28,652 bases of DNA, from the IMG/VR virus record IMGVR_UViG_3300050132_000377, positions 1 to 28,652 of that record. The stretch is one strand, 5' to 3'. The DNA comes from a virus. The stretch's first letter is position 1, and the number at the start of each line of letters is the position of its first letter. A program made the position numbers and the translations under genes. Below the pieces are notes generated by a model that had not been told where the DNA came from, made no database searches, and saw only the letters and a list, made by a program, of their open reading frames with translations. Of this stretch, positions 822 to 24,986 are shown piece after piece.

Positions 822-850
822 TTGACATTCTAACCCCATCGCGATATAAG
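822..850 (+). promoter_or_regulatory. Sigma70-like promoter P1a (module 1), fires into terminator
   Basis: TTGACA (822-827), exactly 17 bp, then TATAAG (845-850), 11 of 12 consensus bases. The predicted start is near 857, only about 10 bases before the terminator hairpin at 866-901, so the transcript would be a terminated RNA of roughly 45 nt. The same arrangement is found at 8694 and 15128, which argues that it is selected and not chance. Confidence 0.6.
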
Positions 851-865
851 GCGACAAATTACCGC

Positions 866-901
866 AAAGCCCCTTTCCGTTCCCACGGTCTGGGGTTTTT
901 C
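866..901 (+). terminator. Intrinsic terminator T1 (module 1)
   Basis: The stem pairs CCCC (870-873) with GGGG (892-895) and CCGT (877-880) with ACGG (885-888), with a small internal loop, followed by a TTTTT run from 896. It ends transcription from upstream, including from the promoter at 822-850, immediately before the activator-type site at 903. Confidence 0.75.
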
Positions 902-902: not shown

Positions 903-947
903 TTTGAAGCGCTTCAAATAGAACCCACCCGCAGCATCCCGTACTAT
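903..947 (+). promoter_or_regulatory. Late promoter P1b with 16-bp activator palindrome (lysis/packaging operon)
   Basis: A perfect palindrome TTTGAAGCGCTTCAAA (903-918) is followed directly by TAGAAC (919-924, weak -35), 17 bp and TACTAT (942-947, -10). The palindrome centre lies 31.5 bp before the -10, i.e. about -43.5, overlapping the upstream edge of the -35. The same bases and spacing recur at 8776 and 15207. This is the layout of a class II activator-dependent promoter. In Mu, the C protein binds a dyad in the same place at its late promoters. The activator gene is not in the window. The predicted start near 954 leaves an 86-nt leader before the endolysin gene. Confidence 0.7.
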
Positions 948-1039: not shown

Positions 1040-1660
1040 ATGGCCGAATTTGAACCAGCATACCTGAAAACAACCGCCACCGAGGGTGGCTATGCCAACG
1101 ATCCCCACGACCGCGGCGGCGAAACCTACAAGGGCGTTTCCCGCATCAACTGGCCGAAATGGGGCGGCTGGAAGTACATCGACGGCGCCAAGGGTGGCCT
1201 GCTCAATCAGCCGGCCTTCGGTTCCCACGAGTATTACAACTGGACAAAGGTACTGAACAACCAACTGGCAAACGTCAACGCCCTGCAAGTGCTGGTTGCC
1301 GCGTTCTATCAGTTAAATTTCTGGAAGCGGCTGGGCGAAATTAGCGATCAGGCGCTGGCCTCATTCATCTACGACAAGGATGTCAATACCGGCTCCATGG
1401 GTTCGCGCTGGCTGCAAGAGGCGGTAGTAGTTACCGTTGACGGGCAGATCGGCCCCAAGACTATTGCCGCCGTCAACAGTTCTAATGCTTTTGTATTACT
1501 GGAGCGAATAAAGACCCTGGCGGTAGATTACTATCTGACTCTCGCGCAGAAACCTGGACAATCAGGTTTCTGGAAATCATGGATAGGCAGAGTCGATTTA
1601 TCACCGGCAAAACTGGCCCAGGCAAACTCTCGCGCTCTGGAATTAGGCATACTCGCATGA
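1040..1660 (+). CDS. Endolysin, glycoside hydrolase family 108-type muramidase (206 aa)
   Basis: Cleaves cell-wall peptidoglycan at lysis. The start at 1040 (MAEFEPAY) fits the GH108 family beginning. The longer frame from 962 begins inside the leader and lacks family sequence. The signature EGGYxNDPxDRGGxTYKG is at residues 15-32, with Glu15 the expected catalytic acid. The C-terminal half (about 95-206) resembles the peptidoglycan-binding domain usually fused to this family, including VDGQIGPKT. There is no signal peptide or anchor, so it should need a holin to reach the wall. It is the first gene of late operon 1, and its stop overlaps the next start (ATGA). GGGAG at 1030-1034 is the ribosome binding site. 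Length is normal for Mu-like phage muramidases. Confidence 0.9.
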   Translation: MAEFEPAYLKTTATEGGYANDPHDRGGETYKGVSRINWPKWGGWKYIDGAKGGLLNQPAFGSHEYYNWTKVLNNQLANVNALQVLVAAFYQLNFWKRLGEISDQALASFIYDKDVNTGSMGSRWLQEAVVVTVDGQIGPKTIAAVNSSNAFVLLERIKTLAVDYYLTLAQKPGQSGFWKSWIGRVDLSPAKLAQANSRALELGILA

Positions 1661-2031
1661 CGCCGCAACTCTTTGCCCCGGCCAGCTACAACGAAGCATC
1701 TCCAGAGGTCCGGGCGGCCGTCAATGGCTGCGGCACGGCTGGCTGGAAGGGCGACCTTGTTCCGGATACCATCTGGGGGCTCTGCATCACCCCGTCGTGC
1801 AACCGTCATGACTGGATGTATACCTGCGGCTCCACTCTGGCCGACAAGAACGAGGCTGACCGGGTGTTCTTCAATAATATGCTCCGGCAGATCGATGCGG
1901 CCGGTGGCTTGTGGATAATCAAGAGACTGCGCCGTAATCGGGCCTGGGAATATTTTGAAGCGGTGGACCACTTCGGTGGGCCCGCCTTTTGGGATGGTAA
2001 AAATCCGGCAGTAAATCTATCAGCAGCATAA
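1657..2031 (+). CDS. Phospholipase A2-like protein in the lysis cassette (124 aa)
   Basis: The start ATG at 1657 overlaps the endolysin stop (ATGA). The product carries CNRHDWMYTCG at residues 48-58, which resembles the catalytic C-x-x-H-D-x-x-Y core of secreted and bacterial phospholipases A2, with His51 and Asp52 as the dyad. EADRVFFNNM at 66-75 resembles the second conserved Asp helix. Cys25, 43, 48 and 57 could form disulfides, and the Gly-rich stretch around 24-33 could be a calcium loop. No signal peptide is visible. If active it would hydrolyse membrane phospholipid at lysis, perhaps helping with outer-membrane disruption, since I see no obvious spanin pair. The gene itself is certain. 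The function is inferred from short motifs only. Confidence 0.65.
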   Translation: MTPQLFAPASYNEASPEVRAAVNGCGTAGWKGDLVPDTIWGLCITPSCNRHDWMYTCGSTLADKNEADRVFFNNMLRQIDAAGGLWIIKRLRRNRAWEYFEAVDHFGGPAFWDGKNPAVNLSAA

Positions 2032-2042
2032 AGGAGTCGGCC

Positions 2043-2483
2043 ATGTTCAGCAAACTAGCAGCGTTCTTCAAGGGATTTTTTCACAATGTGGCAGCAGATC
2101 CGGCGTCATCCGTCAAGGGTGTAGTCCAGCTGGGTGCTGCTGCAGCAGTAGGTTACGGGATGGCGACCGGCATAGTGCCCATTCCTGTCGGCGCTCCGAT
2201 GGCGGCATCATTCGCCACGTCCGGTATCCATGCCCTGGGGACAAACAGTGCCACCGGCGTGGAAGCGCCTGCGGCGCTCAAAACCGAGGCGGCGATTGAG
2301 ACCGTAACGGGCCTTGTGCCTAACGTCCTGTCGGTTGTGGACCAGGTAAGCGCGATCAAAGCCGAAGCGGATGCCGGTCAAAAGAAGATCGACATCTACC
2401 AGGCCGTTGCTACGGCGCTGGCGCAGATCGTCCCGCCGCCTGCTCCGGTTGCTCAAGTAGCGGCCCCGATAGCCGGTAGCTGA
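2043..2483 (+). CDS. Holin-like or membrane-associated small protein (146 aa)
   Basis: The gene follows a good ribosome binding site (AAGGAG at 2031-2036) in the lysis cassette. The N-terminus (1-18) is amphipathic and Phe-rich. Residues about 24-62 are Gly/Ala/Val-rich and could form one or two membrane-spanning helices. The remainder is an Ala-rich helix ending in a Pro/Ala tail. Position next to endolysin and a hydrophobic segment make a holin plausible, but the segment is weak and no holin family is recognised. It could instead be a structural or lysis accessory protein. Confidence 0.6.
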   Translation: MFSKLAAFFKGFFHNVAADPASSVKGVVQLGAAAAVGYGMATGIVPIPVGAPMAASFATSGIHALGTNSATGVEAPAALKTEAAIETVTGLVPNVLSVVDQVSAIKAEADAGQKKIDIYQAVATALAQIVPPPAPVAQVAAPIAGS

Positions 2484-2497
2484 GCGGAGTCGTAGCT

Positions 2498-2710
2498 ATG
2501 GACGACATGGACCAGGTCCAGCCGAATATCGATGCCTTTCAAGCCTTCGCCCTGGACCAACAGCAGCGCCATCGCGAACCGGATAACAATACCGGTACCG
2601 ACTGTACCGACTGCTATGAAGAAATACCGCTCAAGCGGCGGCTGGCCAAACCCGGCTGCCGCCGTTGCATAACATGCCAGGAAACATTTGAAATGGAGGC
2701 CACCGTATGA
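2498..2710 (+). CDS. TraR/DksA C4-type zinc-finger protein (70 aa)
   Basis: A small protein with an acidic, helical N-terminus (MDDMDQVQPNIDAFQ) and a C-terminal C4 zinc finger: CTDC at about 36-39, then CRRCITC at about 54-60, the pattern of the TraR/DksA family that enters the RNA polymerase secondary channel. Mu-like phages regularly carry such a short version in this position. It may tune host or phage transcription without ppGpp. The SD is GGAG at 2486-2489. The stop overlaps the next ATG (ATGA at 2707). Confidence 0.85.
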   Translation: MDDMDQVQPNIDAFQAFALDQQQRHREPDNNTGTDCTDCYEEIPLKRRLAKPGCRRCITCQETFEMEATV

Positions 2711-3219
2711 CACCTGACTATTCCGCACTGCAATTCTGGGTGATCATCATCAACTCCCTGATCACCGCGATCTTCGCCGGCTACTCCTGGTGGTGCAATC
2801 GGGAAAAAGTTACCAACCGCCGCTTCACCACCCTGGAAAGCCAGGTCAAGGACATGGTCGGCAAGCCCGAACTGTCCAAAATCAAGGAAGCTCGGGATCT
2901 GGAACTGGCCGGAGTCAGGAAGTCGCTCGACAATATCCCTCTGTGCTGTCAGGGCCATGCCACGATGGAGAAACGCTTGACTGGCCACAGCGACCGGTTG
3001 GGCCAGCACAAGGAACTGATCGTCAAGATCGAGGCGGAGTTCAAGGCTATGCCCAAAAAACATGACCTGGACGCCGTCTACGAGCGGGTCAATCAGTGTA
3101 ATACCCAGATGTCCGACCTGCGCAGCGAGGTTGGCAAGATCGCCGGCGCCATGCCGGGTCTCACCCATATCACCGAAATGATGAACGAGTTTCTGCTGCG
3201 CCAGGGAGGGAAAAACTAA
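2707..3219 (+). CDS. Mu gp25-like DUF2730 membrane/coiled-coil protein (170 aa)
   Basis: One N-terminal transmembrane helix (about residues 8-27, FWVIIINSLITAIFAGY) is followed by a charged, heptad-like region to residue 165, the layout of the DUF2730 family found between lysis and terminase genes of Mu-like phages. Its exact role is unknown. A membrane-anchored coiled coil in a lysis region could be a lysis accessory. It starts at an ATGA overlap and ends in TAATG with the next gene, so all three are translationally coupled. Cys78, Cys79 and Cys132 are visible in the soluble part. Confidence 0.8.
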   Translation: MTPDYSALQFWVIIINSLITAIFAGYSWWCNREKVTNRRFTTLESQVKDMVGKPELSKIKEARDLELAGVRKSLDNIPLCCQGHATMEKRLTGHSDRLGQHKELIVKIEAEFKAMPKKHDLDAVYERVNQCNTQMSDLRSEVGKIAGAMPGLTHITEMMNEFLLRQGGKN

Positions 3220-3524
3220 TGGGCAACTTTGCCGATGTAATAACCGCCGATATCCGCCTGGTCCTTATGCGCTTCCTGATGGAAAGCGACGGTGATTACC
3301 GCCTCAACTCCTCCATCCTGCACAAGTTGCTGGACATGAAAGCCGGTTACACTACACCCCGCGATAAGATGATCACCGAACTGAACTGGCTCAAAGAGCA
3401 GGGCTACATCACCCTGGAAGAGTCAGGCAATATCTTCATCGCCACCCTCACCCAGCGCGGCCTCGATGTCGCCTCCGGCTCGGCCCGAGTTCCTGGTGTC
3501 GCCCGTCCCAGCCCAAGGAACTGA
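3219..3524 (+). CDS. Mu gp26-like winged-helix phage protein (101 aa)
   Basis: The protein looks like an ArsR-type winged helix: helix pairs at 6-40, a putative recognition helix around 48-65 (TPRDKMITELNWLKEQG) and a beta wing at 66-83, followed by TLTQRGLDVASG. Proteins of this length, ending in VPGVARPSP, are typical between DUF2730 and DUF3486 genes in Mu-like phages. It could bind DNA for packaging or transcription. The function is not established. The start overlaps the upstream stop (TAATG). Confidence 0.8.
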   Translation: MGNFADVITADIRLVLMRFLMESDGDYRLNSSILHKLLDMKAGYTTPRDKMITELNWLKEQGYITLEESGNIFIATLTQRGLDVASGSARVPGVARPSPRN

Positions 3525-3525
3525 T

Positions 3526-4092
3526 ATGCCGAAGCCCTCCACCATCGATATACTGCCTCCCGAAATAAAGGCCCAGCTGCAGGCATGGCTCCAGGACCCC
3601 CGCATCACCCAGCTGGAGGCGACCGAGCGTGCCAACAGTCTGCTGGAGCTTGCAGGCCACCCGGAGCGGGTCACCAAATCAGCCGTCAACCGCTATGCCG
3701 TGCGCATGGAGGAGGTCGGTGCCAAACTGCGCCAGAGCCGCGAAACGGCCGCGATGTACATCGCCCAGGTCGGCGCAGCGCCCCAGGGTCAGACCGGACT
3801 GCTGATCAATGAAATGCTCCGTTCAATGGCTTTTGAACTCTCCTTAAAGATGCAGGAAGCCGACGCCGAAGATCCGGAGTCGATGTCCGCCACCATCAGC
3901 CAGCTCAAGAACCTCGCCCTCACCATGCAGCGACTGGAGCAGTCCGCCACGATCAACGTTAAGCGTGAGGGCGATATTCGCAAGCTGGCGCTCTCCGATG
4001 CCGCCAACGCAGTCGAGAAGGCCGCCGTACAGCAGGGCATGAATGCCGATCAGGCCGCCTTCTGGCGCCAGCAGGTTCTGGGGGTTCAGTGA
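3526..4092 (+). CDS. Mu gp27-like DUF3486 protein, probable small terminase component (188 aa)
   Basis: I chose the ATG at 3526 (MPKPSTIDILPPEI), preceded by AAGGA and directly after the previous stop. The longer frame from 3466 would run back into the upstream gene. The N-terminal 65 residues include a helix-turn-helix-like region (LLELAGHPERVTKSAVNRYAV), and the rest is helical. This family sits directly before the large terminase in Mu-like phages and is thought to be the DNA-recognition part of the packaging motor. That role is by family and position. The stop overlaps the terminase GTG start. Confidence 0.85.
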   Translation: MPKPSTIDILPPEIKAQLQAWLQDPRITQLEATERANSLLELAGHPERVTKSAVNRYAVRMEEVGAKLRQSRETAAMYIAQVGAAPQGQTGLLINEMLRSMAFELSLKMQEADAEDPESMSATISQLKNLALTMQRLEQSATINVKREGDIRKLALSDAANAVEKAAVQQGMNADQAAFWRQQVLGVQ

Positions 4093-5726
4093 GTACTCCC
4101 GGCGATGTCATACGGATCCTCGATCCGGCCGAACTGCCAGCCAGCGTCCGCGAAATCCCCGAGGGGATAGACCCGCTAGCCGAGGGCGTGTTGATGCTGC
4201 ATCAGCGCCAATGGATCAAACAGCTCCACGAGTTCGATCTCAACATTTCCGAAAAGGGGCGCCGTACCGGCATCACCTATGCCACCGCCCTGGATGACTC
4301 CATCACCGCGTCAACCTCTCGCAAGGCGGGCGGCGATAATATCTACTATGTCGGCGACACCAAGGAGAAGGGACTCGAATTTATCGGTTACTGCGCGTCG
4401 ATGGCCAAGATCATGGCCATGGCCATGGCCGACGGCTGGAACGGTATCGAGGTATTCCTCTTCGAAGATCAACAGGAAGATGGCTCAAGCAAACAGATCA
4501 CCAGCTACCGTATCCGCTTCGCCTCCGGCTTCCAGATCGTGGCGCTCTCTTCCAACCCGGCTAACATTCGCGGCCTCCAGGGGATAGTCAATATCGATGA
4601 GGCCGCCTTCCACAAAAATGTCCAGTCCGTAATTGATGCCTGCCTGGCGCTCCTGATCTGGGGCGGCAAGATCCGCATCATCTCCACCCACAACGGCATG
4701 AAGAACGCCTTTAACCAGCTGATTCGCGACGCCCGCGCCGGTCTCAACGGCTTCAAGGTTTTCCACTGCACCTTTGATGATGCCGTGGCCAACGGCCTCT
4801 ATGAGCGCGTCTGTATGGTCAAGAGCTGGGAGCCGACCGCCGAAGGGAAAGCGCGCTGGTATGCCGGCATCATCAAGGGCTACGGCAGCAACATGGCGGC
4901 CAAGAAAGAAGAGCTGGACGCCATCCCCCGCGAGGGCTCCGGCGTGGCCATCCCCGGCGTGCTGATCGAGCAGTGCATGAAAGAGGTGCGGCCGATGCTG
5001 CGCCTGGCACTGGAGAGCGACTTCGTGCCAAAGGCCATACCCTACCGCGACTCCTGGGTTGCCGAGTGGATCAGGATCAACGTCAATCCGGCCCTCGATA
5101 CCCTCGATAAAACCAGAGCGCACAGCTTCGGCAGTGACTACGCCCGTTACGGCGATTTTGCCGTCTTTAACCCGATGACTATCGAACAGGATCTGCGCCG
5201 CCGGGTGCCATTCTTTCTGGAGATGAAGAACGTCCCGACCCGCCATCAAAAGCAGATCCTCTGGCACATCATCGACCATCTGCCTAAGTTCAGGAATGGC
5301 GCGATGGATGCCACCGGCAACGGTTATGGTCTGGCCGAGTCAACCGCCGACAAGTACGGCCGACCACGCATTATCGAGGTAATGCTCAGCGACTCCTGGT
5401 ACCGCGAGAACATGACCCCCTTCCAGCAGGCGTTTGAAGATCAGATGTTCGATATCCCCAGGGATGCCGATATCCTTAACGATCTGCGCGCTCTGGAGAT
5501 GATCGACGGCATCATCAAACTGCCAAGTCTACGCATTCAGGACACCAAGGACGCCGAGTTCAAACGTCACGGCGATGGCGCTATCTCGCTGACCCTGGCG
5601 CATTATGCCACCCGGCAGGATGTAGCACCCATCGAATATCAATCAACCGGCCAGGTCAGACTAATGACCGGCTACAGCGACTATGTCGGCGGATACGGCG
5701 GCCGACGCGACACAGCGGGGTTTTAA
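4089..5726 (+). CDS. Terminase large subunit, Mu gp28-like (545 aa)
   Basis: ATP-driven DNA packaging motor with a headful nuclease. A GTG start at 4089 overlaps the upstream stop (GTGA). The ATPase half shows a deviant Walker A at about 55-63 (EKGRRTGIT), Walker B IVNIDEA ending at Asp170-Glu171, and a coupling motif ISTHNG around 198-203. The C-terminal RNase H-like nuclease shows Asp350 (FGSDYARYGDFA) and Asp407 (GAMDATGNG), with a further acidic HGDGA motif near residue 508. Length and order agree with Mu gp28. It acts with the portal (next gene) at the prohead vertex and, in a transposable phage, cuts packaged DNA out of flanking host sequence. Confidence 0.95.
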   Translation: MSTPGDVIRILDPAELPASVREIPEGIDPLAEGVLMLHQRQWIKQLHEFDLNISEKGRRTGITYATALDDSITASTSRKAGGDNIYYVGDTKEKGLEFIGYCASMAKIMAMAMADGWNGIEVFLFEDQQEDGSSKQITSYRIRFASGFQIVALSSNPANIRGLQGIVNIDEAAFHKNVQSVIDACLALLIWGGKIRIISTHNGMKNAFNQLIRDARAGLNGFKVFHCTFDDAVANGLYERVCMVKSWEPTAEGKARWYAGIIKGYGSNMAAKKEELDAIPREGSGVAIPGVLIEQCMKEVRPMLRLALESDFVPKAIPYRDSWVAEWIRINVNPALDTLDKTRAHSFGSDYARYGDFAVFNPMTIEQDLRRRVPFFLEMKNVPTRHQKQILWHIIDHLPKFRNGAMDATGNGYGLAESTADKYGRPRIIEVMLSDSWYRENMTPFQQAFEDQMFDIPRDADILNDLRALEMIDGIIKLPSLRIQDTKDAEFKRHGDGAISLTLAHYATRQDVAPIEYQSTGQVRLMTGYSDYVGGYGGRRDTAGF

Positions 5727-7265
5727 ATGGCACTTCCAGAAGTATTAAAAAACGAAATAGCCACCATCGATAAAGACATCACCGTTCCGGTCTACTGCGG
5801 AGTACTGCGGTCCCAGGACGATACCCTTCTCACCAGGGGCGGCGGTCGGGGGCTGCGGATCTACGATGATATTGAACGCGATTGCCACGCCTATGCCGTG
5901 TTGCAAAAACGCAAGATGGCCGTCATCGGTCGCGAATGGACCGTTGACCCCGCCTCCACCAGCCGTCTCGACAAACGGGCCGCTGACCTGGTGCGCGCCC
6001 AGCTGCAAAACCTGTCGGGCGACATCCCTGATGACGAAGTCCTGCCCCAGGTCACCGGCTTTGATGCCGTCTGCCTCAATCTTCTCGACGCCAACCTCAA
6101 GGGCTTCGCCGTAGGCGAGATCATGTGGAGCAGCGACGGCGCCGAGATCGTCGCCAATGAAATTCGTGCCCGCGATCAGCGCCGCTTCGCCTTCGCTCCC
6201 GGTAATCGTGGCTATCGACTGACCCTCAAAACCTTTGACAACCTGCTACCGGGCGAGCCGGTACCGCCGCGCAAGTTCGTGGTCAACAGCTTCGGCACCA
6301 AGGACAGCAACCCGTATGGTCTCGGCCTCGGCTCCCGGCTGTTCTGGCCGACCCTGTTTAAACGGCAGGGCATAACCTTCTGGCTGACCTTCATCGACAA
6401 GTTCGCCGCGCCCACCGCCATCGGCAAATACCCGACCGGTTCTACCCCCGACGACCAGACCAAACTTTTGAATGCCCTGGGCGCCATCGCATCGGAAGCC
6501 GGTGTCATCATTCCCGAAGGGATGGTCATCGAACTGTTGGAAGCGGCCCGCTCTGGTTCCGTAGATTGTTACGAGAAGCTCGCCCGCTACATGGATGAGC
6601 AGATCAGCGAGGCGGTCCTGGGCGAGACCCTGTCCACCAACCTGGGTAGTGGAGGGGGAAGTCTGGCCGCCGCCAAAACGCACAACGAGGTGCGGCTGGA
6701 ACTGGTCAAGGCCGATGCCGATCTATTATGCGGTTGCCTCAACGGGACCCTGATCAAGTGGATCACGACGCTCAACGTACCCGGTGCCAAGCCGCCAAAA
6801 GTCTGGCGCGATTGCGCTCCGGAGGATGACCTCAAAACTAAGGCCGAGCGCGACGGCATCCTGTCCAAGGATGTGGGGGTGAAGTTCACCCAGGTCTACC
6901 TGCAGCGCGAGTATGGTTTCGAAGAGGGAGATATCGAGAGTATCGGTGCCCCGGCTCCCGGTTCCGATAAGGGGCTGATAAATACGAAGATATCGGACGC
7001 CGCTTTCGCCGAACTTGCCCCGCAACCGGCGTCCACCGATCAGACCATGGAAGATCTGACCGCCGCCGCCTCGCTGCGCTACACCGATCTGCTGATGACA
7101 AGTATCAAGGAGATCCTGGACAAGGCCAAAAACCTCCAGGAGGCCCGCGAAATGTTGACTAATGAGGGCATGGATATCTCTATCGCCAACCTGGCCGGCT
7201 TCATTGCCGAGATGAACATGAAGTCCATGATGGTCGGCAGACTGGAAGCGGCACAAGAGCCATGA
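5727..7265 (+). CDS. Portal protein, Mu gp29-like DUF935 (512 aa)
   Basis: Forms the dodecameric portal through which DNA enters the head. The start follows the terminase stop without a gap (TTTTAAATGG). The central region has the DUF935 hallmarks: AVLQKRKMAVIGREW near 50-64, RFxxxxGNRGYRLT, a long KFVVNSFGTKDSNPYGLGLGSRLFWP block around 180-210, then DEQISEAVLGETLSTNLGSGGGSLAAAKTHNEVR around 290-325. The C-terminus (about 400-512) is the variable helical portal extension. There is no strong SD, so translation is probably coupled to the terminase gene. The last bases overlap the MuF start. Confidence 0.95.
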   Translation: MALPEVLKNEIATIDKDITVPVYCGVLRSQDDTLLTRGGGRGLRIYDDIERDCHAYAVLQKRKMAVIGREWTVDPASTSRLDKRAADLVRAQLQNLSGDIPDDEVLPQVTGFDAVCLNLLDANLKGFAVGEIMWSSDGAEIVANEIRARDQRRFAFAPGNRGYRLTLKTFDNLLPGEPVPPRKFVVNSFGTKDSNPYGLGLGSRLFWPTLFKRQGITFWLTFIDKFAAPTAIGKYPTGSTPDDQTKLLNALGAIASEAGVIIPEGMVIELLEAARSGSVDCYEKLARYMDEQISEAVLGETLSTNLGSGGGSLAAAKTHNEVRLELVKADADLLCGCLNGTLIKWITTLNVPGAKPPKVWRDCAPEDDLKTKAERDGILSKDVGVKFTQVYLQREYGFEEGDIESIGAPAPGSDKGLINTKISDAAFAELAPQPASTDQTMEDLTAAASLRYTDLLMTSIKEILDKAKNLQEAREMLTNEGMDISIANLAGFIAEMNMKSMMVGRLEAAQEP

Positions 7266-8002
7266 CCGGTGCCGAAGTTAAACGTATCTTCAGCCTCCCT
7301 TTCAAAGAGGCTGAAGCCTTCTTTAAAGAGAAACTGAACATTCCAACCCAGAAATGGGATGATCTCTGGAAGGCGGAACAGGCCAAGGGCTTCATGTCGG
7401 CCGGGGCCTACAAGGCTGATCTGCTGGTGGATCTGCGTGATGCGGTGGATAAATCGATCTCTGGCGAGTTGGACCTGAAGGCGTTCCAGGGGCAGTTCGA
7501 TGTTATAGTTGAAAAACATGGCTGGCAGTACAACGGCGGCCGCAACTGGCGCAGTGAGTTGATCTGGGATGTGAACATCCGCACCGCCTACCAGGCCGGG
7601 CGCTGGCAGCAGTTTGAGGATATGGCGGCCGACGGCAAACCGGTCATGCTGCGCTACGTGCATGCCAACGGGGTCATGCGTCCCCGTCCGGAACATGTTG
7701 CCTTGAATGGGACCACGTTGCCGCAGGATGACCCCTTCTGGAATTCGCACTATCCACCTAACGGCTGGCGCTGTCATTGCCGGGCGGTCTATGCCAATGA
7801 CGAAGCACAACAGCCGCCGCCAAAGGGGTGGAACAAGACCGATTCAAAGACGGGCGCGCCGGTGGGGATTGACAAGGGCTGGGATTATAACGTCGGTCAG
7901 GCCGGGCAGCAACGGGCCGGGCAGGTTCTGGCTGATAAGTTAGCATCGCTGCCGCCTGATATCTCAGCCAGGCTGAAACAGGAACTGGAGTCGCGATCAT
8001 GA
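7262..8002 (+). CDS. Head morphogenesis protein, MuF/gp30 family (246 aa)
   Basis: A minor head protein made with the portal. In Mu, gpF/gp30 is injected or sits inside the head. The MuF core is visible from about residue 95 to 185: WDVNIRTAYQAGRWQ, LRYVHANGVMRPRPEH and the signature WNSHYPPNGWRCHCRA near 162-177. The C-terminal tail is short, so no toxin or enzyme domain of the kind fused to some MuF proteins is present. The start overlaps the portal gene (ATGA at 7262) and the end overlaps the next gene (ATGA at 7999). Confidence 0.93.
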   Translation: MTGAEVKRIFSLPFKEAEAFFKEKLNIPTQKWDDLWKAEQAKGFMSAGAYKADLLVDLRDAVDKSISGELDLKAFQGQFDVIVEKHGWQYNGGRNWRSELIWDVNIRTAYQAGRWQQFEDMAADGKPVMLRYVHANGVMRPRPEHVALNGTTLPQDDPFWNSHYPPNGWRCHCRAVYANDEAQQPPPKGWNKTDSKTGAPVGIDKGWDYNVGQAGQQRAGQVLADKLASLPPDISARLKQELESRS

Positions 8003-8529
8003 ACGTTGGCGTCATCATAGACGATCGTGAAGTTCGCGCGGCCCTGGATAAACTGGCGGCCAAGTGCCGCAATATGAAACCGCTTATGAGCAGGATCGGC
8101 GGCTACTACGAGGGGCGTGTCCTGGAAAATTTCAAGAATGAAAGCGATCCGGAGGGTCACAAGTGGCCGCGCCTCTCCCCGGTCACGCTGATGATGGCAC
8201 TGGCTAAAAAGAAGGGTTTTAAAAAGAAGGGCACCCTGTCGGCCAAGGGCAGAAACTTCCTGCAGCGCAAGTCGTTGCTGTTTCAGTCCGGCGCACTGTA
8301 CGACTCGATCCACTTCCAGGCCAACAATGACGGCGTGAAGATCGGTACGCGAGGCGGCATCAAATATTCTCGCATCCACCAGTTTGGCGGCATGGCCGGC
8401 CGTGGTCATAAAGTACGCATTCCGGCGCGGCCCTATCTGGCCATGAATGACGGCACTGATAATATGCGTCTGGCGTTACGGGATCAGAGAGCCATTTTGG
8501 ATCTGGTGACCAATTATCTGGAGCCATAG
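7999..8529 (+). CDS. Virion morphogenesis / tail completion protein, Mu gpG (gp31)-like (176 aa)
   Basis: Related to the phage virion morphogenesis (tail completion) family. It starts MNVGVIIDDREVRAAL and has the conserved block WPRLSPVTL near residue 54-62 and the C-terminal HQFGG...PARPYLAMND around 131-152. In Mu, gpG is needed for head completion and head-tail joining. A Lys-rich insertion at about 72-82 is notable. It is the last gene of late operon 1. About 320 bp of non-coding sequence with the second promoter module follows. Confidence 0.9.
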   Translation: MNVGVIIDDREVRAALDKLAAKCRNMKPLMSRIGGYYEGRVLENFKNESDPEGHKWPRLSPVTLMMALAKKKGFKKKGTLSAKGRNFLQRKSLLFQSGALYDSIHFQANNDGVKIGTRGGIKYSRIHQFGGMAGRGHKVRIPARPYLAMNDGTDNMRLALRDQRAILDLVTNYLEP

Positions 8530-8693
8530 TCCAACGAGCAAATTTGCCCTGTACGGCGTTTGACCACTCCTGTCCCTGCAAGGACTCAAATATTTTATTT
8601 GAACGCGACACGCGGGAGTTTAAAGATGGTTTTAACACGGTTGCAAGAAGTCTCACGGGTACAGAATCCAGCTTTCCATATTTCTTTGTTCCC
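8530..8693 (+). other. Gap with no convincing gene between gpG and promoter module 2
   Basis: This part of the 321-bp gap has no gene I can defend. The forward frame with a TTG at 8544 stays open to a TAA at 8700-8702 and reads like a protein tail (52 residues with a CPC motif), but it has no ribosome binding site. A 119-residue minus-strand frame also crosses it, without support. It could be a decayed small gene. The rest of the gap (8694-8850) is module 2. Confidence 0.4.
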
Positions 8694-8722
8694 TTGACAT
8701 AAATTCCCGCTCGTGGCATAAG
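8694..8722 (+). promoter_or_regulatory. Sigma70-like promoter P2a (module 2), fires into terminator
   Basis: TTGACA (8694-8699), 17 bp, CATAAG (8717-8722). The predicted start is near 8729 and the terminator hairpin lies at 8755-8775, giving a short RNA of about 45 nt. It is the second copy of the arrangement at 822. Confidence 0.6.
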
Positions 8723-8754
8723 GCAAAAAACAACTACCTCGCCCTTCTTCGATT

Positions 8755-8775
8755 CCCCCGGAGAGGGGCTTTTTA
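8755..8775 (+). terminator. Intrinsic terminator T2 (module 2)
   Basis: A short GC stem, CCCC (8756-8759) with GGGG (8765-8768), is followed by a T-run at 8770-8774. The stem is only four to five pairs and therefore weaker than T1 and T3. It ends late operon 1 and the short RNA from P2a. Confidence 0.6.
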
Positions 8776-8820
8776 TTTGAAGCCCTTCAAATAGAACTCC
8801 CCGTCGCCATCACGTAGTGT
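8776..8820 (+). promoter_or_regulatory. Late promoter P2b with activator palindrome (head/sheath operon)
   Basis: Palindrome TTTGAAGCCCTTCAAA (8776-8791; seven-base arms, two-base centre), TAGAAC at 8792-8797, 17 bp, TAGTGT at 8815-8820. The palindrome centre to -10 distance is 31.5 bp, identical to the copies at 903 and 15207. The predicted start near 8827 leaves a 24-nt leader with the SD of the protease gene (AGGGG, 8841-8845). Confidence 0.7.
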
Positions 8821-8850
8821 GCCCCCTAGCAAATCTTGAAAGGGGCGCAC

Positions 8851-10011
8851 ATGACAAAGAAACTCCTCGAAATATTCAAACCCGGAACCCATACCGCCAT
8901 GGCAGGTCAGGCCCTCTCGTTCGCTGAAGCCGACCTGGCTGCTACGATCGCCGCCTATGATCCTGCCAAGCACGAAGCTCCTCTGGTCGTCGGCCATCCT
9001 ACGATCAATGCCCCGGCATACGGTTGGGTCAAGTCCTTGAGCTTTGCCGATGGCGCCATGCTGGCCGAGCCTGACCAGGTGGATGTTGCTTTTGCCGAGA
9101 TGGTCAACTCCGGCAAGTTCAAGAAGATCTCCGCCTCGTTCTATCTCCCCACTGCACCGAACAATCCTGTGCCGGGCGTTTACTATCTGCGCCATGTCGG
9201 CTTCCTGGGCGCACAGCCTCCGGCAGTCAAGGGGCTCAAGAGTGCGTCGTTTACCGAAACGGAAGACGGCGTGGTCGAGTTCGGCGATTGGGCCGACCAA
9301 GTTGAAGCCGGCCTGTTCCGCTCCTTGCGTGAATGGATCATCGGCAAGTTCAGTCTCGATGATGCGGATAAGGCGCTGCCTTCCTACGATGTCAACACGG
9401 TCGAAGGCGAAGCGGCTCGGCCTGATCCAGCTGCGCCAGGTGTCTGTGGATACTGTGGTAATCCCTGTTGTGATTGTACCTGTAATTCATCCCCCGGCCT
9501 GGCCGGATCTCAATTTTCCGAAGAACAAAAGGAGAGCCCCACTATGCTGACTTCAGCGCAGATCGCCGCCAAAGAGGTGGAATTCGCCGAGCGCGAAACC
9601 AAACTCAAACTGCAGGAAACCACAAACCGCCATACAGAGCACCTCTCGTTTGCCGAAGCCCTGGTTAAAGAGGCCAAACTGCTGCCGGCGCTTAAAGAAC
9701 AGACCGTTGCCATGCTGGACTTTGCCGCCGGTCTGGAAGGGACAAGCGTAGTCGAGTTCGGTGAAGGCGACGGCAAGAAAAGCCAGCCCCTGGTTGAATC
9801 GTTCAAGGCCTTCCTTTCCGGACAGCCCAAGATCGTCGAGTTCGGCGAGGTGGCCGGCGGTGAGGTCGAAGGTGACACCACTGCCAGCTTTGCTGCAGCT
9901 CCAGGTTACACCGTAGATGCTACATCGCTGGAGACCCATAACAAGGCCCTGGCCTACCAGACTAAAAACCCCGGCACAGAGTACATGACCGCAGTCAAGG
10001 CAGTTTCCTAA
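8851..10011 (+). CDS. Prohead protease-scaffold fusion, Mu gpI (gp32)-like (386 aa)
   Basis: Matures the prohead by proteolysis and, through its C-terminal half, scaffolds capsid assembly. I chose ATG 8851, seven bases after AGGGG, over a TTG at 8836. The protease domain is residues 1-160, with the Mu-I-type core KKISASFYLP (Ser94/Ser96) and RHVGFLGAQPPAVKGL (His115). A cluster of six cysteines lies at 199, 202, 206, 207, 209 and 211, an unusual insert. The scaffold (232-386) is helical and repeats short (V)EFGE/SFAEA motifs. A second start at Met232 has its own SD (see nested CDS). This is the first gene of late operon 2. Confidence 0.9.
   Translation: MTKKLLEIFKPGTHTAMAGQALSFAEADLAATIAAYDPAKHEAPLVVGHPTINAPAYGWVKSLSFADGAMLAEPDQVDVAFAEMVNSGKFKKISASFYLPTAPNNPVPGVYYLRHVGFLGAQPPAVKGLKSASFTETEDGVVEFGDWADQVEAGLFRSLREWIIGKFSLDDADKALPSYDVNTVEGEAARPDPAAPGVCGYCGNPCCDCTCNSSPGLAGSQFSEEQKESPTMLTSAQIAAKEVEFAERETKLKLQETTNRHTEHLSFAEALVKEAKLLPALKEQTVAMLDFAAGLEGTSVVEFGEGDGKKSQPLVESFKAFLSGQPKIVEFGEVAGGEVEGDTTASFAAAPGYTVDATSLETHNKALAYQTKNPGTEYMTAVKAVS
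9544..10011 (+). CDS. Nested scaffold protein, Mu gpZ-like, from internal start (155 aa)
   Basis: An in-frame ATG at 9544 (codon 232 of the protease gene) is preceded by AAAAGGAG at 9527-9534, nine bases upstream, an excellent ribosome binding site inside a coding region. The product is the helical scaffold half alone (MLTSAQIAAKEVEF...). In Mu the 3' part of gene I is likewise translated separately as scaffold Z, so a high scaffold:protease ratio can be made from one mRNA. The internal start is seen in the sequence. Its use is inferred. Confidence 0.75.
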   Translation: MLTSAQIAAKEVEFAERETKLKLQETTNRHTEHLSFAEALVKEAKLLPALKEQTVAMLDFAAGLEGTSVVEFGEGDGKKSQPLVESFKAFLSGQPKIVEFGEVAGGEVEGDTTASFAAAPGYTVDATSLETHNKALAYQTKNPGTEYMTAVKAVS

Positions 10012-10040
10012 GTCACTAATAAAATCAGGAGGAAGAATCC

Positions 10041-10385
10041 ATGAGCAGGCAAGCGCAACCCATTTTGTCCCAGACCATCACCGCCAGTGGCGCTATCGGC
10101 GAATACCGTTTCGTCAGTCCGGCCTCCGCTCTGGCCGGCGCCGGTGTCAACACCCTCGGCGTCGCCCGAGTGGCTGCCGTCGACAAGGATACGATTCCGG
10201 TCGACGTCCTCGGCACCGCCATAGTCGAGACCGGTGCCGCCCTTACCGCCGGCGGCCCCATCCAGACCGACGCCACCGGCCGGGCCATAGACAAAGCTGC
10301 CGGTGTCACTGTGGCCCGTTTATTGCCTGGCCAGACCGCCACGGCGGCCGGACAGTTCGTCGAAGTGTTGCTGATCCCCAACTAA
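10041..10385 (+). CDS. Head decoration/cement protein, DUF2190-like (114 aa)
   Basis: A small all-beta-looking protein rich in Gly, Ala, Thr and Val (SASGAIGEYRFV-type start, ALTAGGPIQTDATGRA near 72-87, ending FVEVLLIPN), typical of capsid decoration proteins encoded between protease and major capsid genes. It probably binds the outside of the expanded head. It has a strong SD (AGGAGG, 10028-10033). Family assignment is by pattern and position. Confidence 0.75.
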   Translation: MSRQAQPILSQTITASGAIGEYRFVSPASALAGAGVNTLGVARVAAVDKDTIPVDVLGTAIVETGAALTAGGPIQTDATGRAIDKAAGVTVARLLPGQTATAAGQFVEVLLIPN

Positions 10386-10414
10386 AATTATAACCCAATC
10401 AGGAGGTATGAACC

Positions 10415-11338
10415 ATGCTCAATACCGCGTCAATCCGGGTCATCAACCCGATTCTCAGTACCTATGTCCAAGGTTATCAGCAGGCGAACCTCGTCGGCGA
10501 TGCCCTTTTCCCCCGCGTCCCGGTCGAAATTTCCGGCGGCCAGATCCTGGAGTTCGGCAAGGAAGCCTTCAAACTCTACAACTCGCGCCGTGCTCCCGGT
10601 GGCGGCACCAAGCGCATCCAGTTCGGCTATCTTGGTAAGGTTTTCGCTCTGCTGAACGATGCCCTGGAAGCACCGGTACCGCGTGAATACCTGCGTGACG
10701 CCAAGGTGATGCCCGGTATCGATCTCGGTCAGCGAGCGGTCCGCATCGTCATGAACTCGCTGCTCTTGGGGTTAGAATCTGGCCAGGCCACCCTGGCGCT
10801 GGATGCCAGCCAATACGACGCCAACCACAAGATCGCCCTGGCCGGCGTCGCCAAATGGAGTGATCCGGCAGCGCTCCCGATCACCCAGATGGATACCTAC
10901 AAGGAGGCGGTCCGCACCACCGTTGGGATCAACCCCAATACGCTGCTACTCTCCTCCCAGGCGTTTATCGCCCTGCGTACCAACCCGCAGATCCAGGGGC
11001 AATTCAAGTACACCTCGGCCGAATCCATCACCACCGATATGATTGCCCGTGCCTTCGATCTGGAAAAAGTCGTGGTCGGCAAGGCGGTCACTTCCGACGA
11101 CTCCGGCGCGATCTCCGATATCTGGGGTAACAACGCGGTTCTGGCATACGTTCCGGCTGGCCCCTCCGGTCTGGAAGAGCCCTCTTACGGTTACACCTAC
11201 ACCATGACCGGTCATCCATTGGTGGAAGAGGCCTATTACGACAACAATGCTAAATCATGGATCTATGGCGTCGGCTTCGAGCGCGCGCCGGTCCTGTCCG
11301 GCATCACTTCTGGCTTTCTGATCCAGACTCCGAAGTAA
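10415..11338 (+). CDS. Major capsid protein (307 aa)
   Basis: Located after protease, scaffold and decoration genes with a strong SD (AGGAGG, 10401-10406), where Mu carries gpT. The sequence begins MLNTASIRVINPIL and shows the features of HK97-fold capsids of the 'capsid E / gpT-like' type: an N-terminal arm, VGDALFPRVPV, EFGKEAFKLYNSRRAPGG, then a Pro-rich SDPAALPITQMDTYKEAVR helix region and C-terminal GHPLVEEAYYDNNAKSWIYG. It looks like the version common in hybrid Mu-like prophages rather than close to Mu gpT itself. A REP-like hairpin follows the stop. Confidence 0.85.
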   Translation: MLNTASIRVINPILSTYVQGYQQANLVGDALFPRVPVEISGGQILEFGKEAFKLYNSRRAPGGGTKRIQFGYLGKVFALLNDALEAPVPREYLRDAKVMPGIDLGQRAVRIVMNSLLLGLESGQATLALDASQYDANHKIALAGVAKWSDPAALPITQMDTYKEAVRTTVGINPNTLLLSSQAFIALRTNPQIQGQFKYTSAESITTDMIARAFDLEKVVVGKAVTSDDSGAISDIWGNNAVLAYVPAGPSGLEEPSYGYTYTMTGHPLVEEAYYDNNAKSWIYGVGFERAPVLSGITSGFLIQTPK

Positions 11339-11341
11339 CCC

Positions 11342-11386
11342 TTCGACTCCGCTCAGGGACCGTTCCGGTTGGTGAGCGGAGTCGAA
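11342..11386. repeat. REP-like palindrome between capsid gene and gp35-like gene
   Basis: A 14-bp perfect inverted repeat: TTCGACTCCGCTCA (11342-11355) and TGAGCGGAGTCGAA (11373-11386), with a 17-bp loop. Its sequence resembles a widespread bacterial REP-type palindrome family (TTCGACTCCGCTCAG). As RNA it would form a strong hairpin just after the capsid stop (11338), which could protect the capsid mRNA or reduce expression of the genes beyond. Confidence 0.7.
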
Positions 11387-11409
11387 CCAAATTGAAAGGA
11401 ACTTATATT

Positions 11410-11703
11410 ATGGCACTAAAACTTTATCTGGTCCTGTCGCCGATCCTGGCCGACAAGCGTTATGAGGAAGGTGATACCATTACCCTGGAAGATAAGGCCG
11501 CCCTGGAGCTGCAAGGTTTAGGTGCGATCGGAGAATCAAGCGGGGATGCACCTGTGCCTGGCAAGCTTTCGGCAACCGATGCGATCGCTCAGATCAAGGC
11601 TGCTGCAACTGTTGAAGAGGTGAATGCCATCCTTGGCGATGATAGCCGTGCGACGGTTGTCGCTGCCGCAACTGTTCGCACAACTGAACTGGCCTCGGTC
11701 TAA
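11410..11703 (+). CDS. Mu gp35-like small head protein (97 aa), hypothetical
   Basis: ATG 11410 follows AAAGGA (11395-11400) at nine bases. The longer frame from 11257 runs inside the capsid gene and through the REP-like hairpin and is rejected. Residues 1-38 (KLYLVLSPILADKRYEEGDTITLEDKAALEL) look like a small beta domain seen in phage proteins of this position. Residues 52-97 look like a helical repeat (DAIAQIKAAATVEEVNAILG). The exact function is unknown. By order it matches Mu gp35. Confidence 0.7.
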   Translation: MALKLYLVLSPILADKRYEEGDTITLEDKAALELQGLGAIGESSGDAPVPGKLSATDAIAQIKAAATVEEVNAILGDDSRATVVAAATVRTTELASV

Positions 11704-11706
11704 TCC

Positions 11707-12135
11707 ATGGCTTACTGCACCCTGGCGGACATCGATGTACCCGAAAAGGATCTGATCGAACTGACCGATGATAATAATGTCGGCGTGGTTGACCAGGCTG
11801 TGATCGACAAGGCCATCGCTGCCGCCGGGGAGCTGATAGACGGCTATTTGAGGGGGAGGTACACCCTTCCCCTCGACCCGCTGCCGGGCCTTCTGAAGAC
11901 ACTGGCGCTGGATATCGTCATCTACCGGATCTATACCCGCCGGGTGCGGCTCGCCCCTCCGGAAGCACTGACCGATCGTTACAAGAACAGCCTGAAGCTC
12001 CTCGACCAAATTGCCACCGGTAAGATCTCCCTCGGTACCGAAGCCCTCAACGGCCAGGACACTCCGGAAACCGGCGGCGCCCAGTCAGCTGCTCCTGATC
12101 GAGTATTCACCCGCGATAAACTGTGGGACTACTGA
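11707..12135 (+). CDS. Mu gp36-like DUF1320 protein, head-tail connector region (142 aa)
   Basis: Begins MAYCTLADIDVPEKDLIELTDD, the usual DUF1320 opening, with the core IDGYLRGRYTLPLDPLPGLLKTLALDIVIYRIYTRR near 44-79 and VFTRDKLWDY at the C-terminus. This helical family lies between capsid and tail genes of Mu-like phages and is likely an adaptor at the head-tail interface. The start is three bases after the previous stop. Confidence 0.9.
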   Translation: MAYCTLADIDVPEKDLIELTDDNNVGVVDQAVIDKAIAAAGELIDGYLRGRYTLPLDPLPGLLKTLALDIVIYRIYTRRVRLAPPEALTDRYKNSLKLLDQIATGKISLGTEALNGQDTPETGGAQSAAPDRVFTRDKLWDY

Positions 12136-12136
12136 G

Positions 12137-12649
12137 ATGCTCAACGAAATCGAAACCAATATTGCCGCACTTCTGACCGCTCGTCTGGAAGGCGCCCGTA
12201 AGATCGGCGTCCAGAAGGGTGTCAAGGGGCTGGCTCAGCCGGCCGTGTATGTATCGGTTGAGAACGGGAGCTTTGAAAAGACTTCACCAAGAGCCGTCAA
12301 GCAAACTGTGGCTGTTTATGTCGATATCATCTTCTCCAATTTAAAGGATCAGCAGATCCGGCGTGAAGGTATCAATCTGATCCTGGAAGGGGCGCTGCAG
12401 TTGCTCCTGCTAAACGATCTCGGCCTAACTATCCACCCGTTGATCCCGAAGTCCTGGTCCAATACTACTACGGCAGAGCTGGACGAACTGGGTTTGATCT
12501 CCTACTCCCTGGAGCTTTCGACGTTTTACCACCTGGTAAAACAGAGTGAAGACGAGATTAACGACCTGATCACCATCGGAATCTCTTATCTGCTCACACC
12601 CGGCGATGCCGCCACTGACTCATCCGATACCCTGACTACCACAGTTTAA
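12137..12649 (+). CDS. Mu gp37-like DUF1834 protein, tail terminator-type (170 aa)
   Basis: ATG 12137 (MLNEIETNIAALL) lies one base after the previous stop. The longer frame from 12011 is a shadow of the DUF1320 gene. Family pattern: helical N-terminus, VYVSVENGSFE, KQTVAVYVDIIFSNLKDQQ and REGINLILEGALQLLL. DUF1834 proteins resemble tail terminators that cap the tail tube for head joining. That role is inferred from position and family. Confidence 0.87.
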   Translation: MLNEIETNIAALLTARLEGARKIGVQKGVKGLAQPAVYVSVENGSFEKTSPRAVKQTVAVYVDIIFSNLKDQQIRREGINLILEGALQLLLLNDLGLTIHPLIPKSWSNTTTAELDELGLISYSLELSTFYHLVKQSEDEINDLITIGISYLLTPGDAATDSSDTLTTTV

Positions 12650-12662
12650 AGGAGGTTTAACT

Positions 12663-12854
12663 ATGTCACAAAAGCTGCTCGTAAAAGCCAAACCCGGCGA
12701 AAAATGCCCCCGCGAGGAGAATCCCCGCACCTACATCAGCGATGACCCCAAGGGGACGCCGGTAGAAAACACCTCGTACTATCGTCGCCTGTTGAATGAC
12801 GGTTCCCTGGACCTCGTCGACGGCACCAAGAAAAAAACCGGAGGTGAAGCATAA
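12663..12854 (+). CDS. Mu gp38-like DUF2635 small protein (63 aa)
   Basis: Strong SD AAAGGAGG (12648-12655). It starts MSQKLLVKAKPGEKCPREENPRTYISDDP, with the KPxxG.xCPRExNP.TYI core typical of DUF2635, then YYRRLLNDGSLDLV. Always next to the sheath gene in Mu-like phages; function unknown. Its TAA overlaps the sheath ATG (TAATG at 12852-12856). Confidence 0.88.
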   Translation: MSQKLLVKAKPGEKCPREENPRTYISDDPKGTPVENTSYYRRLLNDGSLDLVDGTKKKTGGEA

Positions 12855-14275: not shown

Positions 14276-14296
14276 TCCGCCTTAAAGGAGGCTTGA

Positions 14297-14656
14297 ATGG
14301 AAGCATATATCACCACCATAACCCTGGAGATCGACGGCGAGCTGCTGGAAGACTTCAACTCATTCACCGAAAAAGAGCGGGTCAAAAAGAAGCTCGTCAA
14401 GCTGATGAACGGCCACGGTACCACCAAGGTTACCGCTTCCAATCTGTTCAGCCTCGACTATGTTATCCCTGCTGACAAAACCGAGTTCGACTTTGATGGC
14501 CTTGAGGATGCAACCGTTACGGTCGACTACGAAAACGGTACAAGGATCAGCTTTGGCGGCTGCGAAGTACTCTCGATCGGCGAGGCCAAGTTCGACGGCG
14601 ACAAGGAAGTTACCAAGAACATCGAGTTCGCCGCTACTACGCGGACAGTGGAGTAA
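14297..14656 (+). CDS. Tail tube protein, Mu gpM (gp40)-like (119 aa)
   Basis: Forms the inner tail tube. Strong SD AAAGGAGG (14284-14291). A small beta-rich protein with the family motif MNGHGTTKVTASNLFSLDYVIP, then EFDFDGLEDATVTVDYENGTRISFGGCEVLSIGE and a C-terminal TTRTVE. Located directly after the sheath and before the tail chaperone, as in Mu. Length (119) agrees with the family. Confidence 0.93.
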   Translation: MEAYITTITLEIDGELLEDFNSFTEKERVKKKLVKLMNGHGTTKVTASNLFSLDYVIPADKTEFDFDGLEDATVTVDYENGTRISFGGCEVLSIGEAKFDGDKEVTKNIEFAATTRTVE

Positions 14657-14659
14657 GCC

Positions 14660-15004
14660 ATGGTTCAGACCGGTACCTTCCCCAATGGGATCGTCAACGA
14701 TAAAGACGCCGCCTGCCGCGAGTTCATCCTCCAGGAGCGCACCTTCCGCAACACCCTGGAGCTGGCCAACGATCCGGCCATCAAGAAAGAACTGCTCGCC
14801 GTCCCGGCTTACTACGACGCCGCGATCATCTCCAAGCGGTTGAAAGTGGCCGGCATCGACAACCTGACCCCCGAGATGGTCCTGGATCTGGACGGTGCCG
14901 ATGGCGATACCCTGGCTGGTGCCATGATGGACCTGGATCAACGGAGGACGGAGTTTCGAAGCGAACAACAAGCCGCACAGAAAGCTATTGCTGGCGTTGA
15001 TTAA
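14660..15004 (+). CDS. Tail assembly chaperone, zero-frame product, Mu gp41-like (114 aa)
   Basis: A helical protein (KDAACREFILQERTFRNTLELANDPAIKKELLAVP, then LTPEMVLDLDGADGDTLAGAMMDLDQRRTEF) that fits the Mu gp41 tail assembly chaperone family, placed between tube and tape measure. It chaperones the tape-measure protein during tail assembly. Start ATG 14660 lies three bases after the tube stop. A second open frame continues from 14928 to 15131, so a longer frameshift product is predicted (separate entry). Confidence 0.88.
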   Translation: MVQTGTFPNGIVNDKDAACREFILQERTFRNTLELANDPAIKKELLAVPAYYDAAIISKRLKVAGIDNLTPEMVLDLDGADGDTLAGAMMDLDQRRTEFRSEQQAAQKAIAGVD

Positions 15005-15131
15005 ACTGGGAGTCCCCTGGTCTGAGGCGCTTGATATGCCTCTGGCCGAGGGGGACAGCCTTCTGCTCAACTATAACGAGATCGTCGATCCAAAACCCGA
15101 AAAGCAGAGGGTAAGAAAGAAGAAAGCTTGA
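14660..15131 (+). CDS. Tail assembly chaperone, predicted frameshift product, Mu gp41'-like (~156 aa)
   Basis: The +1 (equivalently -2) frame is open from 14928 to the TGA at 15129-15131, well past the zero-frame stop at 15002-15004. It encodes coherent protein (KPHRKLLLALIKLGVPWSEALDM, then PLAEGDSLLLNYNEIVDP and a basic tail RVRKKKA). The WSEALDMPLAEG segment looks like the T-type extension of tail chaperones. It has no start or SD of its own. If ribosomes shift at TTT (14954-14956), the product is 99 zero-frame plus 57 shifted residues. Tail chaperones of many phages, including Mu, are made with such programmed frameshifts. The open frame is seen; the shift is inferred. Confidence 0.7.
14943..14959 (+). 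promoter_or_regulatory. Candidate +1 ribosomal frameshift site with SD-like stimulator
   Basis: Just inside the overlap of the two frames lies GGAGG (14943-14947) and GGAG (14950-14953), directly before TTT (14954-14956) and the rare Arg codon CGA (14957-14959). Slipping one base forward re-pairs tRNA-Phe from TTT to the better TTC and continues as GAA-GCG. SD-like tract, slip codon and slow codon repeat the logic of the RF2 (prfB) +1 site. An alternative +1 site in the overlap is AAA-G at 14981-14984. Confidence 0.5.
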
Positions 15132-15156
15132 CATATCACCGCCGTTTTGGCATACA
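15128..15156 (+). promoter_or_regulatory. Sigma70-like promoter P3a (module 3), fires into terminator
   Basis: TTGACA (15128-15133), 17 bp, CATACA (15151-15156). The -35 overlaps the stop codon of the chaperone frameshift frame. The predicted start is near 15163, about 10 bases before terminator T3, giving an RNA of about 45 nt. The initial transcribed region (AAATACCACATCAAGCCCC) closely resembles that of module 1. Confidence 0.55.
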
Positions 15157-15172: not shown

Positions 15173-15206
15173 AAGCCCCTTTCCTTACCGGATCGGGGCT
15201 TTTTTA
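15173..15206 (+). terminator. Intrinsic terminator T3 (module 3)
   Basis: AAGCCCC (15173-15179) pairs with GGGGCTT (15195-15201), with an inner TCC/GGA pairing, followed by a run of T to 15205. It ends late operon 2 and the short RNA from the promoter at 15128. Confidence 0.8.
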
Positions 15207-15251
15207 TTTGAAGCCCTTCAAATAGAAACCGCCTTCCCCTCCACGTATTAT
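15207..15251 (+). promoter_or_regulatory. Late promoter P3b with activator palindrome (tail operon)
   Basis: TTTGAAGCCCTTCAAA (15207-15222), TAGAAA (15223-15228), 17 bp, TATTAT (15246-15251). Centre-to--10 distance is 31.5 bp, as in the other two copies. The predicted start is 15257-15258, so the tape-measure ATG at 15260 has a leader of at most about three bases. Confidence 0.72.
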
Positions 15252-24925: not shown

Positions 24926-24973
24926 GGGGGTGTTTAAGGGCATTAAAATGAGCCTTAAAACCCCCTTCTTTTT
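24926..24973 (+). terminator. Intrinsic terminator T4 after the Dam gene
   Basis: GGGGG...TTTAAGG (24926-24939) pairs with CCTTAAA...CCCCC (24953-24965) with a small bulge, followed by TTCTTTTT. It ends the tail operon. As in the three late modules, the T-run leads directly into a TTTGAAG palindrome. Confidence 0.75.
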
Positions 24974-24986
24974 GAAGTGCTTCACT
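24971..24986 (+). promoter_or_regulatory. Degenerate fourth copy of the late activator palindrome
   Basis: TTTGAAGTGCTTCACT keeps the left arm and the GAAG/CTTC core of TTTGAAGnnCTTCAAA but loses the last two bases of the right arm and the TAGAA extension. At the expected -10 position (25010-25015, AAAATC) there is no good hexamer. No gene follows before the probable phage end. It may be a remnant promoter of a lost right-end gene, or chance conservation next to the terminator. Confidence 0.4.

Follow-up and report, generated by a model that had tools for sequence, protein, structure and literature searches.

Candidate Mor/C-type operators before three late operons of a Mu-like prophage, each preceded by a putative promoter and an intrinsic terminator

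Late region of the prophage

The window analysed here spans an IMG/VR record in full (28,652 bases). It covers the right-hand portion of a Mu-like prophage and then runs into host DNA, in which a tRNA-Lys gene lies; this tRNA was the sole match in an Rfam search of the window. Comparison with the Mu annotation found the late genes in Mu order, which is the arrangement of the late region of a Mu-like transposable phage. Three late operons can be read, and their gene content agrees with the lysis/packaging, head/sheath and tail assignments of the original prediction (Table 1). Also in the lysis operon, 1579-2031 weakly resembles phospholipase A2, with a score under the family cut-off, and 2498-2710 encodes a DksA/TraR-type zinc finger protein.

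In the gap between gene G and the protease gene (window 8615-8650) lies a TTTAAAnnnGGTTTTAAnnnGGTT-type element, which was found in 14 of 44 related loci and in 0.9% of random stretches. As the central gyrase cut site of Mu is annotated in the G-I gap, this element may be its counterpart.

Table 1. Predicted features of the late promoter units and late operons (window positions, except for the last line)
Feature	Position	Strand	Description
P1, lysis/packaging	822..850	+	TTGACA (822-827), 17-bp spacer, TATAAG (845-850); estimated start about 857
Intrinsic terminator, lysis/packaging	866..900	+	GCCCC...GGGGTTTTT; T run at UP-element position of P2
Operator, lysis/packaging	903..918	+	TTTGAAGCGCTTCAAA; 16 bp, 5+6+5
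Weak -35 of P2, lysis/packaging	919..924	+	TAGAAC; 17 bp before -10
-10 of P2, lysis/packaging	942..947	+	TACTAT
Lysis/packaging operon	about 1041-8529		Lysozyme (GH108), gp27, terminase-sized ORF, portal, F, G (lysozyme to portal/Neck1)
P1, protease/sheath	8694..8722	+	TTGACA (8694-8699), 17 bp, CATAAG (8717-8722); estimated start about 8729
Intrinsic terminator, protease/sheath	8741..8774	+	Stem-loop 8741-8769, T run
Operator, protease/head/sheath	8776..8791	+	TTTGAAGCCCTTCAAA
Weak -35 of P2, protease/sheath	8792..8797	+	TAGAAC
-10 of P2, protease/sheath	8815..8820	+	TAGTGT
Protease/head/sheath operon	8851-15004		Protease, scaffold, head, adaptor, sheath, tube
P1, tail	15128..15156	+	TTGACA (15128-15133), 17 bp, CATACA (15151-15156); estimated start about 15163
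Intrinsic terminator, tail	15173..15205	+	AAGCCCCTTTCC...GGATCGGGGCTT plus T run
Operator, tape measure/baseplate	15207..15222	+	TTTGAAGCCCTTCAAA
Weak -35 of P2, tail	15223..15228	+	TAGAAA
-10 of P2, tail	15246..15251	+	TATTAT
Tail operon	15260 on		Tape measure, baseplate, tail fibre
Late promoter units of phage AFS-2018a (L118)	9616, 16826, 22257, 28209		TTTAA-type operator TTTAAAGnnCTTTAAA, Mor/C layout

A palindrome repeated before the three late operons

The sequence TTTGAAGnnCTTCAAA was found in three exact copies in the window and nowhere else, and the exact 16-bp TTTGAAGNNCTTCAAA lies, to the base, at the three places where the original prediction had put it. All three operators have the make-up TTTGA-AGCnCT-TCAAA, that is, two 5-bp arms split by 6 bp. 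With up to three mismatches, TTTGAAGNNCTTCAAA has six matches in the window against 0.97 expected, and 0 of 100 shuffles reached six. One of the weaker matches, a degenerate operator-like sequence at 24971-24986, lies behind a hairpin with a T run and downstream of a DNA methyltransferase gene; it was rejected as a fourth late promoter for want of a suitably spaced -10.

In all three units, exactly 31 bases separate the dyad centre from the -10 of P2, the putative late promoter. The identical spacing, the three -10 sequences and a TAGAAm hexamer exactly 17 bp before each -10, all of them claimed originally, were borne out. A scan of the plus strand of the window for any perfect 5+6+5 palindrome with TAnnnT at 30-32 from its centre, with no sequence given, returned the three operators and nothing else; 300 simulated sequences of the same dinucleotide content gave a mean of 0.66 sites, and none of the 300 held two sites with the same arms.

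The -10 elements of P2 follow the pattern TAnTnT, and the TAGAAC or TAGAAA hexamer shares three or four of six bases with TTGACA and is thus a non-consensus -35. RNA polymerase binds the Mu lys, I and P promoters without C, which is required at a later step (PMC4461284).

Conservation of the unit in related phages

The unit was surveyed in its clade, as 23 units from 13 records. Two of these records, G001 and G002, had been picked by the motif and are not independent evidence for the operator; G027, G032, G012, G018 and G016 were found by their protease, and G035, G036, G056, G079 and G094 by their Mor protein. The Mor genes of G024 and G001 are identical, so these two records are possibly near-copies. 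The distance from dyad to -10 is 31 in 19 of the 23 units and 32 in the other four, the -10 begins with TA in 22, and the right-half CTTCA is invariant or nearly so. Poor -10 elements were seen in the protease units of G032 and G035 (TATCAC and GAATGT). In the records fetched by Mor protein, the operator that this predicted was found at late positions in G035 (lysis and protease), G079 (two sites) and G056, and in a weaker version at the late promoters of G036 and G094. Weaker TGAA-type operators, at a distance of 30 or 31, also precede late genes in G012, G018 and G016.

Between units of different operons, identity is 91-93% in the arms and 85% in TAGAA, and falls to 42% in the spacer and 32% in the DNA past the -10. 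TAGAA itself, counted by position, is present in 19 to 21 of the 23 units; its place directly after the palindrome, part of the original description, holds in all three window units and is not universal, the lysis unit of G002 having TATAT instead. Since TAGAA is kept so much better across operons than the spacer, it is probably a working weak -35, as had been supposed. Units of one phage do resemble one another, as they would if recent copying or shared descent had left functionless duplicates. This explanation is exceedingly improbable, because the spacer and the downstream DNA differ between operons while the arms and TAGAA are kept, and because the unit is retained before divergent head modules, with proteases only 30-44% identical in L006 and G001.

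When the remaining protease relatives were put through a strict blind scan, only L089 showed a repeated operator (a pair in L038 is weak and probably due to chance), and no repeated palindrome was found by scan in KP12 and PhiKM. A looser motif scan of IMG/VR returned, among the matches listed, mostly contigs not otherwise linked to this phage. Upstream of the protease in L022, L023, L024 and L026 there is another palindrome, CTGACACGCGTCAG (or CACGTG); in L024 it lies, by eye, about 31 bases before TAACAT and is a possible operator of another Mor clade.

Comparison with the Mor and C promoters of Mu

In phage Mu, the Mor dimer binds a 16-bp element that contains two 5-bp inverted repeats and has its centre at -43.5 (PMC4390567). 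The units in the window share with the Mor-dependent promoter Pm the 16-bp element, the 5-bp repeats split by 6 bp, the centre at -43.5 with a sigma-70 -10 behind it, AT-rich DNA at -57 to -52, a terminator hairpin nearby and, going by the relatives, a predicted activator of family PF08765. The class II spacing proposed from the centre at about -43.5 is supported and is that of Mu Pm. In the 8776 unit, five T and one A occupy -57 to -52, the position of the partial UP element of Pm, and the terminator T run seems to serve as a partial UP element of P2. The window differs from Pm in its operator (TTTGA/TCAAA versus AGTAA/TTAAT), in having three late operons where Pm serves one middle operon, in the weak -35 TAGAAn and in the putative promoter and terminator upstream.

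The Mu C promoters Plys, PI, PP and Pmom offer the second comparison. There too one activator serves several late operons, including lysis and head (protease), and in the Mu sequence the centre of the Pmom C operator TTATgccccaATAA lies 31 bases before TAAGAT, exactly the distance seen here. The proposed functional counterpart of C-controlled promoters is thus supported in layout and in the operons served, lysis and protease among them. The operator is unlike TTAT-N6-ATAA, however, the window operators being near-perfect palindromes, and nearly all relatives encode one Mor/C protein against two in Mu.

In Pasteurella phage AFS-2018a (MH238466), a blind scan showed that the lysis, protease, tail and baseplate genes are preceded by TTTAAAnnnCTTTAAA-type units, four in all (Table 1). 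Their TTTAA/TTAAA operator is centred 30 bases before TAnnnT, its half-site is one base apart from the TTTGA of the window, and the Mor protein is about 31% identical; by eye, no promoter-terminator pair stands upstream. No experimental study of the late promoters of AFS-2018a was found in the literature, and the units are apparently undescribed. Likewise, a partial literature search found no description of late operators of Mu-like phages outside Mu.

By these comparisons, the operator sequence is clade-specific and the units are best read as Mor/C-type promoters with an operator of their own. Their layout matches Mu Pm and Pmom and only the operator sequence is new, so the "new late-promoter class" that had been proposed is not sustained.

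The operator follows a clade of Mor-family proteins

No activator gene lies in the window, as the left end of the record falls to the right of the region where relatives carry it. In operator-bearing relatives with records extending that far, a single Mor-family (PF08765) gene was found, at roughly 0.4 to 4 kb ahead of the lysis promoter. By their sequences, operator-bearing relatives encode one clade of Mor-family proteins, and the "not yet described C-like activator" of the original prediction gives way, in the relatives, to a member of the known Mor family. A profile of this clade and its predicted structure gave Mu C (9l0x) and Mor (1rr7) as first PDB matches. The best structural model has a modest TM of 0.28-0.40 to known Mor/C proteins, with no match at E <= 0.001; an alignment of just four sequences and the modelling of a single chain by itself may be the reason. 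A simple recognition-helix code was sought by eye; TxRQ occurs in the Mor proteins of TGAA-type operators but also in some others, and no code is claimed.

Operator and Mor clade covary. On the Mor tree, the TGAA-type operator label needs two changes, against a mean of 7.8 when shuffled (none of 500 shuffles got down to two); the TTTGA clade is supported at 100/100. On the head protease tree the same label needs five changes, at least four of them forced. G003, G004 and G025 have proteases 62-68% identical to that of the window, yet lack the operator, and their Mor is distant; the operator is kept with proteases as divergent as those of G001 (44% identical) and L006 (30%). The operator thus follows Mor and not the adjoining protease. 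Conserved genes without the palindrome had been named beforehand as an observation that would speak against the promoters. Many protease relatives are indeed of this kind, but the Mor tree accounts for them, as they carry another Mor.

In G001 (L068, IMGVR_UViG_3300031722_000084) the Mor-like gene and the lysis promoter are separated by a diversity-generating retroelement at 6415-9265; its parts, named from their sequences, are a reverse transcriptase, an avd-like gene and two variable-type proteins.

Repressors, too, typically act on perfect palindromes at promoters, and a phage or host repressor holding the late genes off could, in the units with an upstream promoter, block polymerase arriving from it. 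We consider such a repressor operator very unlikely, since the centre at -43.5, the weak -35 and the fixed 31 bases are activator geometry common to Mu Pm and Pmom, the operator tracks a Mor-family activator on the tree, and units without the upstream promoter or terminator retain operator and distance. The three operators are very probably Mor/C-type activator sites that drive the late operons through P2. Three sites with this layout, each before a late operon, also support the claim that the regulon can be read from the sequence.

A putative promoter-terminator leader upstream of each operator

The original description of the promoters was incomplete, as it had overlooked a further part of each unit. 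In all three, the order is P1, a leader of about 45 nt ending in an intrinsic terminator, the operator and P2. P1 is a conserved sequence of a putative promoter that would fire into the terminator. Three of the seven TTGACA hexamers on the plus strand of the window are P1 -35 elements. The terminator begins about 20 bases after the P1 -10, its T run reaches, or almost reaches, the operator, and the predicted P1 RNA is 44-47 nt. Across most phages the P1 -10 goes with the operon, being TATAAG for lysis, CATAAG for protease and CATACA for tail.

Among 30 units of a wider group, 22 have P1 and terminator, two have a terminator without canonical P1, six have neither and none has P1 alone (P = 4.7e-5 for co-occurrence, which is only a guide because the units are related). 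The terminators of the 22 P1-bearing units are predicted at about -16 kcal/mol or stronger. When 17 P1 units were aligned on TTGACA, whose identity is then given by construction, identity between operons was 37% in the spacer and 29% in the flank; these low values indicate that the P1 -35 is probably under selection. A scan of IMG/VR for the P1 signature alone gave almost only chance matches apart from the phages of the clade.

As the palindrome directly abuts the terminator T run in most units, it might be part of the terminator or of an RNA processing hairpin instead of a protein site. This is highly improbable: the arms are 2 bases apart, too tight for a loop, the palindrome is kept where there is no terminator, and in weaker copies arm bases are lost with no compensating change, whereas the right-half TTCA and the -10 stay. 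An antisense role of the P1 leader RNA likewise found no support, as its complementarity to the window is limited to 9-base chance runs.

The leader resembles pR'-tR' of lambda, where late genes likewise stand behind a constitutive-looking promoter that runs into an intrinsic terminator and Q acts by antitermination; the window differs in adding a putative activator-dependent promoter after the terminator and in having a leader of only about 45 nt. An antitermination layer as in lambda is a third option for P1, beside the two set out below. In its full form, P1 would be the true late promoter, its terminator overcome by a phage antiterminator, and P2 would be secondary. TTGACA-17-YATAAG is far nearer to consensus than P2, a strong terminator follows some 45 nt on, and P1 and terminator go together in 22 of 22 units and are both missing from six. 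Nevertheless, the protease units of G032, G035, G012, G016 and G018 lack P1 and terminator and have operator and P2, and the P2 elements are conserved as well as those of P1. No antiterminator, Q-like gene or Q site was identified in the general, not dedicated, analysis; the early region lies outside the window. We therefore regard P1 as the true late promoter as unlikely.

Proposed mechanism and implications

In the preferred reading, the palindromes would be the operators of a dimeric activator of the Mor/C family, with its gene a short way beyond the left end of the record. Late in the lytic cycle, the dimer would bind the 16-bp element at about -43.5 and let the host sigma-70 RNA polymerase use P2, with its weak -35 TAGAAn, 17 bp and TAnTnT, so that the lysis/packaging, head/sheath and tail operons would start together. 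The upstream terminator would stop transcription arriving from the left. Its T run occupies the position at which Mu Pm is contacted by the alpha subunit, a contact that may be made here as well.

The P1-terminator leader is the part worth following, as it asks what a prophage gains from retaining ordinary-looking promoters whose transcripts would stop at terminators adjoining the activator site. After termination, polymerase often remains on the DNA and is able to start again (PMC6978322, PMC6978380), so P1 could load P2; polymerase stopped at the terminator would also be expected to cover the operator, so that traffic from P1 and binding of the activator may be mutually exclusive. The two can be cast as a relay of promoter, terminator and activator, in which a constitutive P1 feeds the terminator at the activator site, and either a Mor-like dimer captures the post-termination polymerase for P2 or the traffic keeps the dimer off until it has accumulated. 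Such a relay is a speculative model, which we think rather unlikely. If true, it would be a timing control by two linked layers at each late operon, which is not known in Mu.

For the Mu-like phages more widely, the pairing of operator and regulator becomes readable from sequence across a wide set. Half-sites on a nearly fixed scaffold are TTTGA in the present clade, TTTAA in AFS-2018a, TTAT for Mu C and AGTAA for Mu Mor, and with the polymerase complexes of Mu C and Mor in the PDB (9l0x, 9l0y), the DNA-recognition code of the Mor/C family becomes testable.
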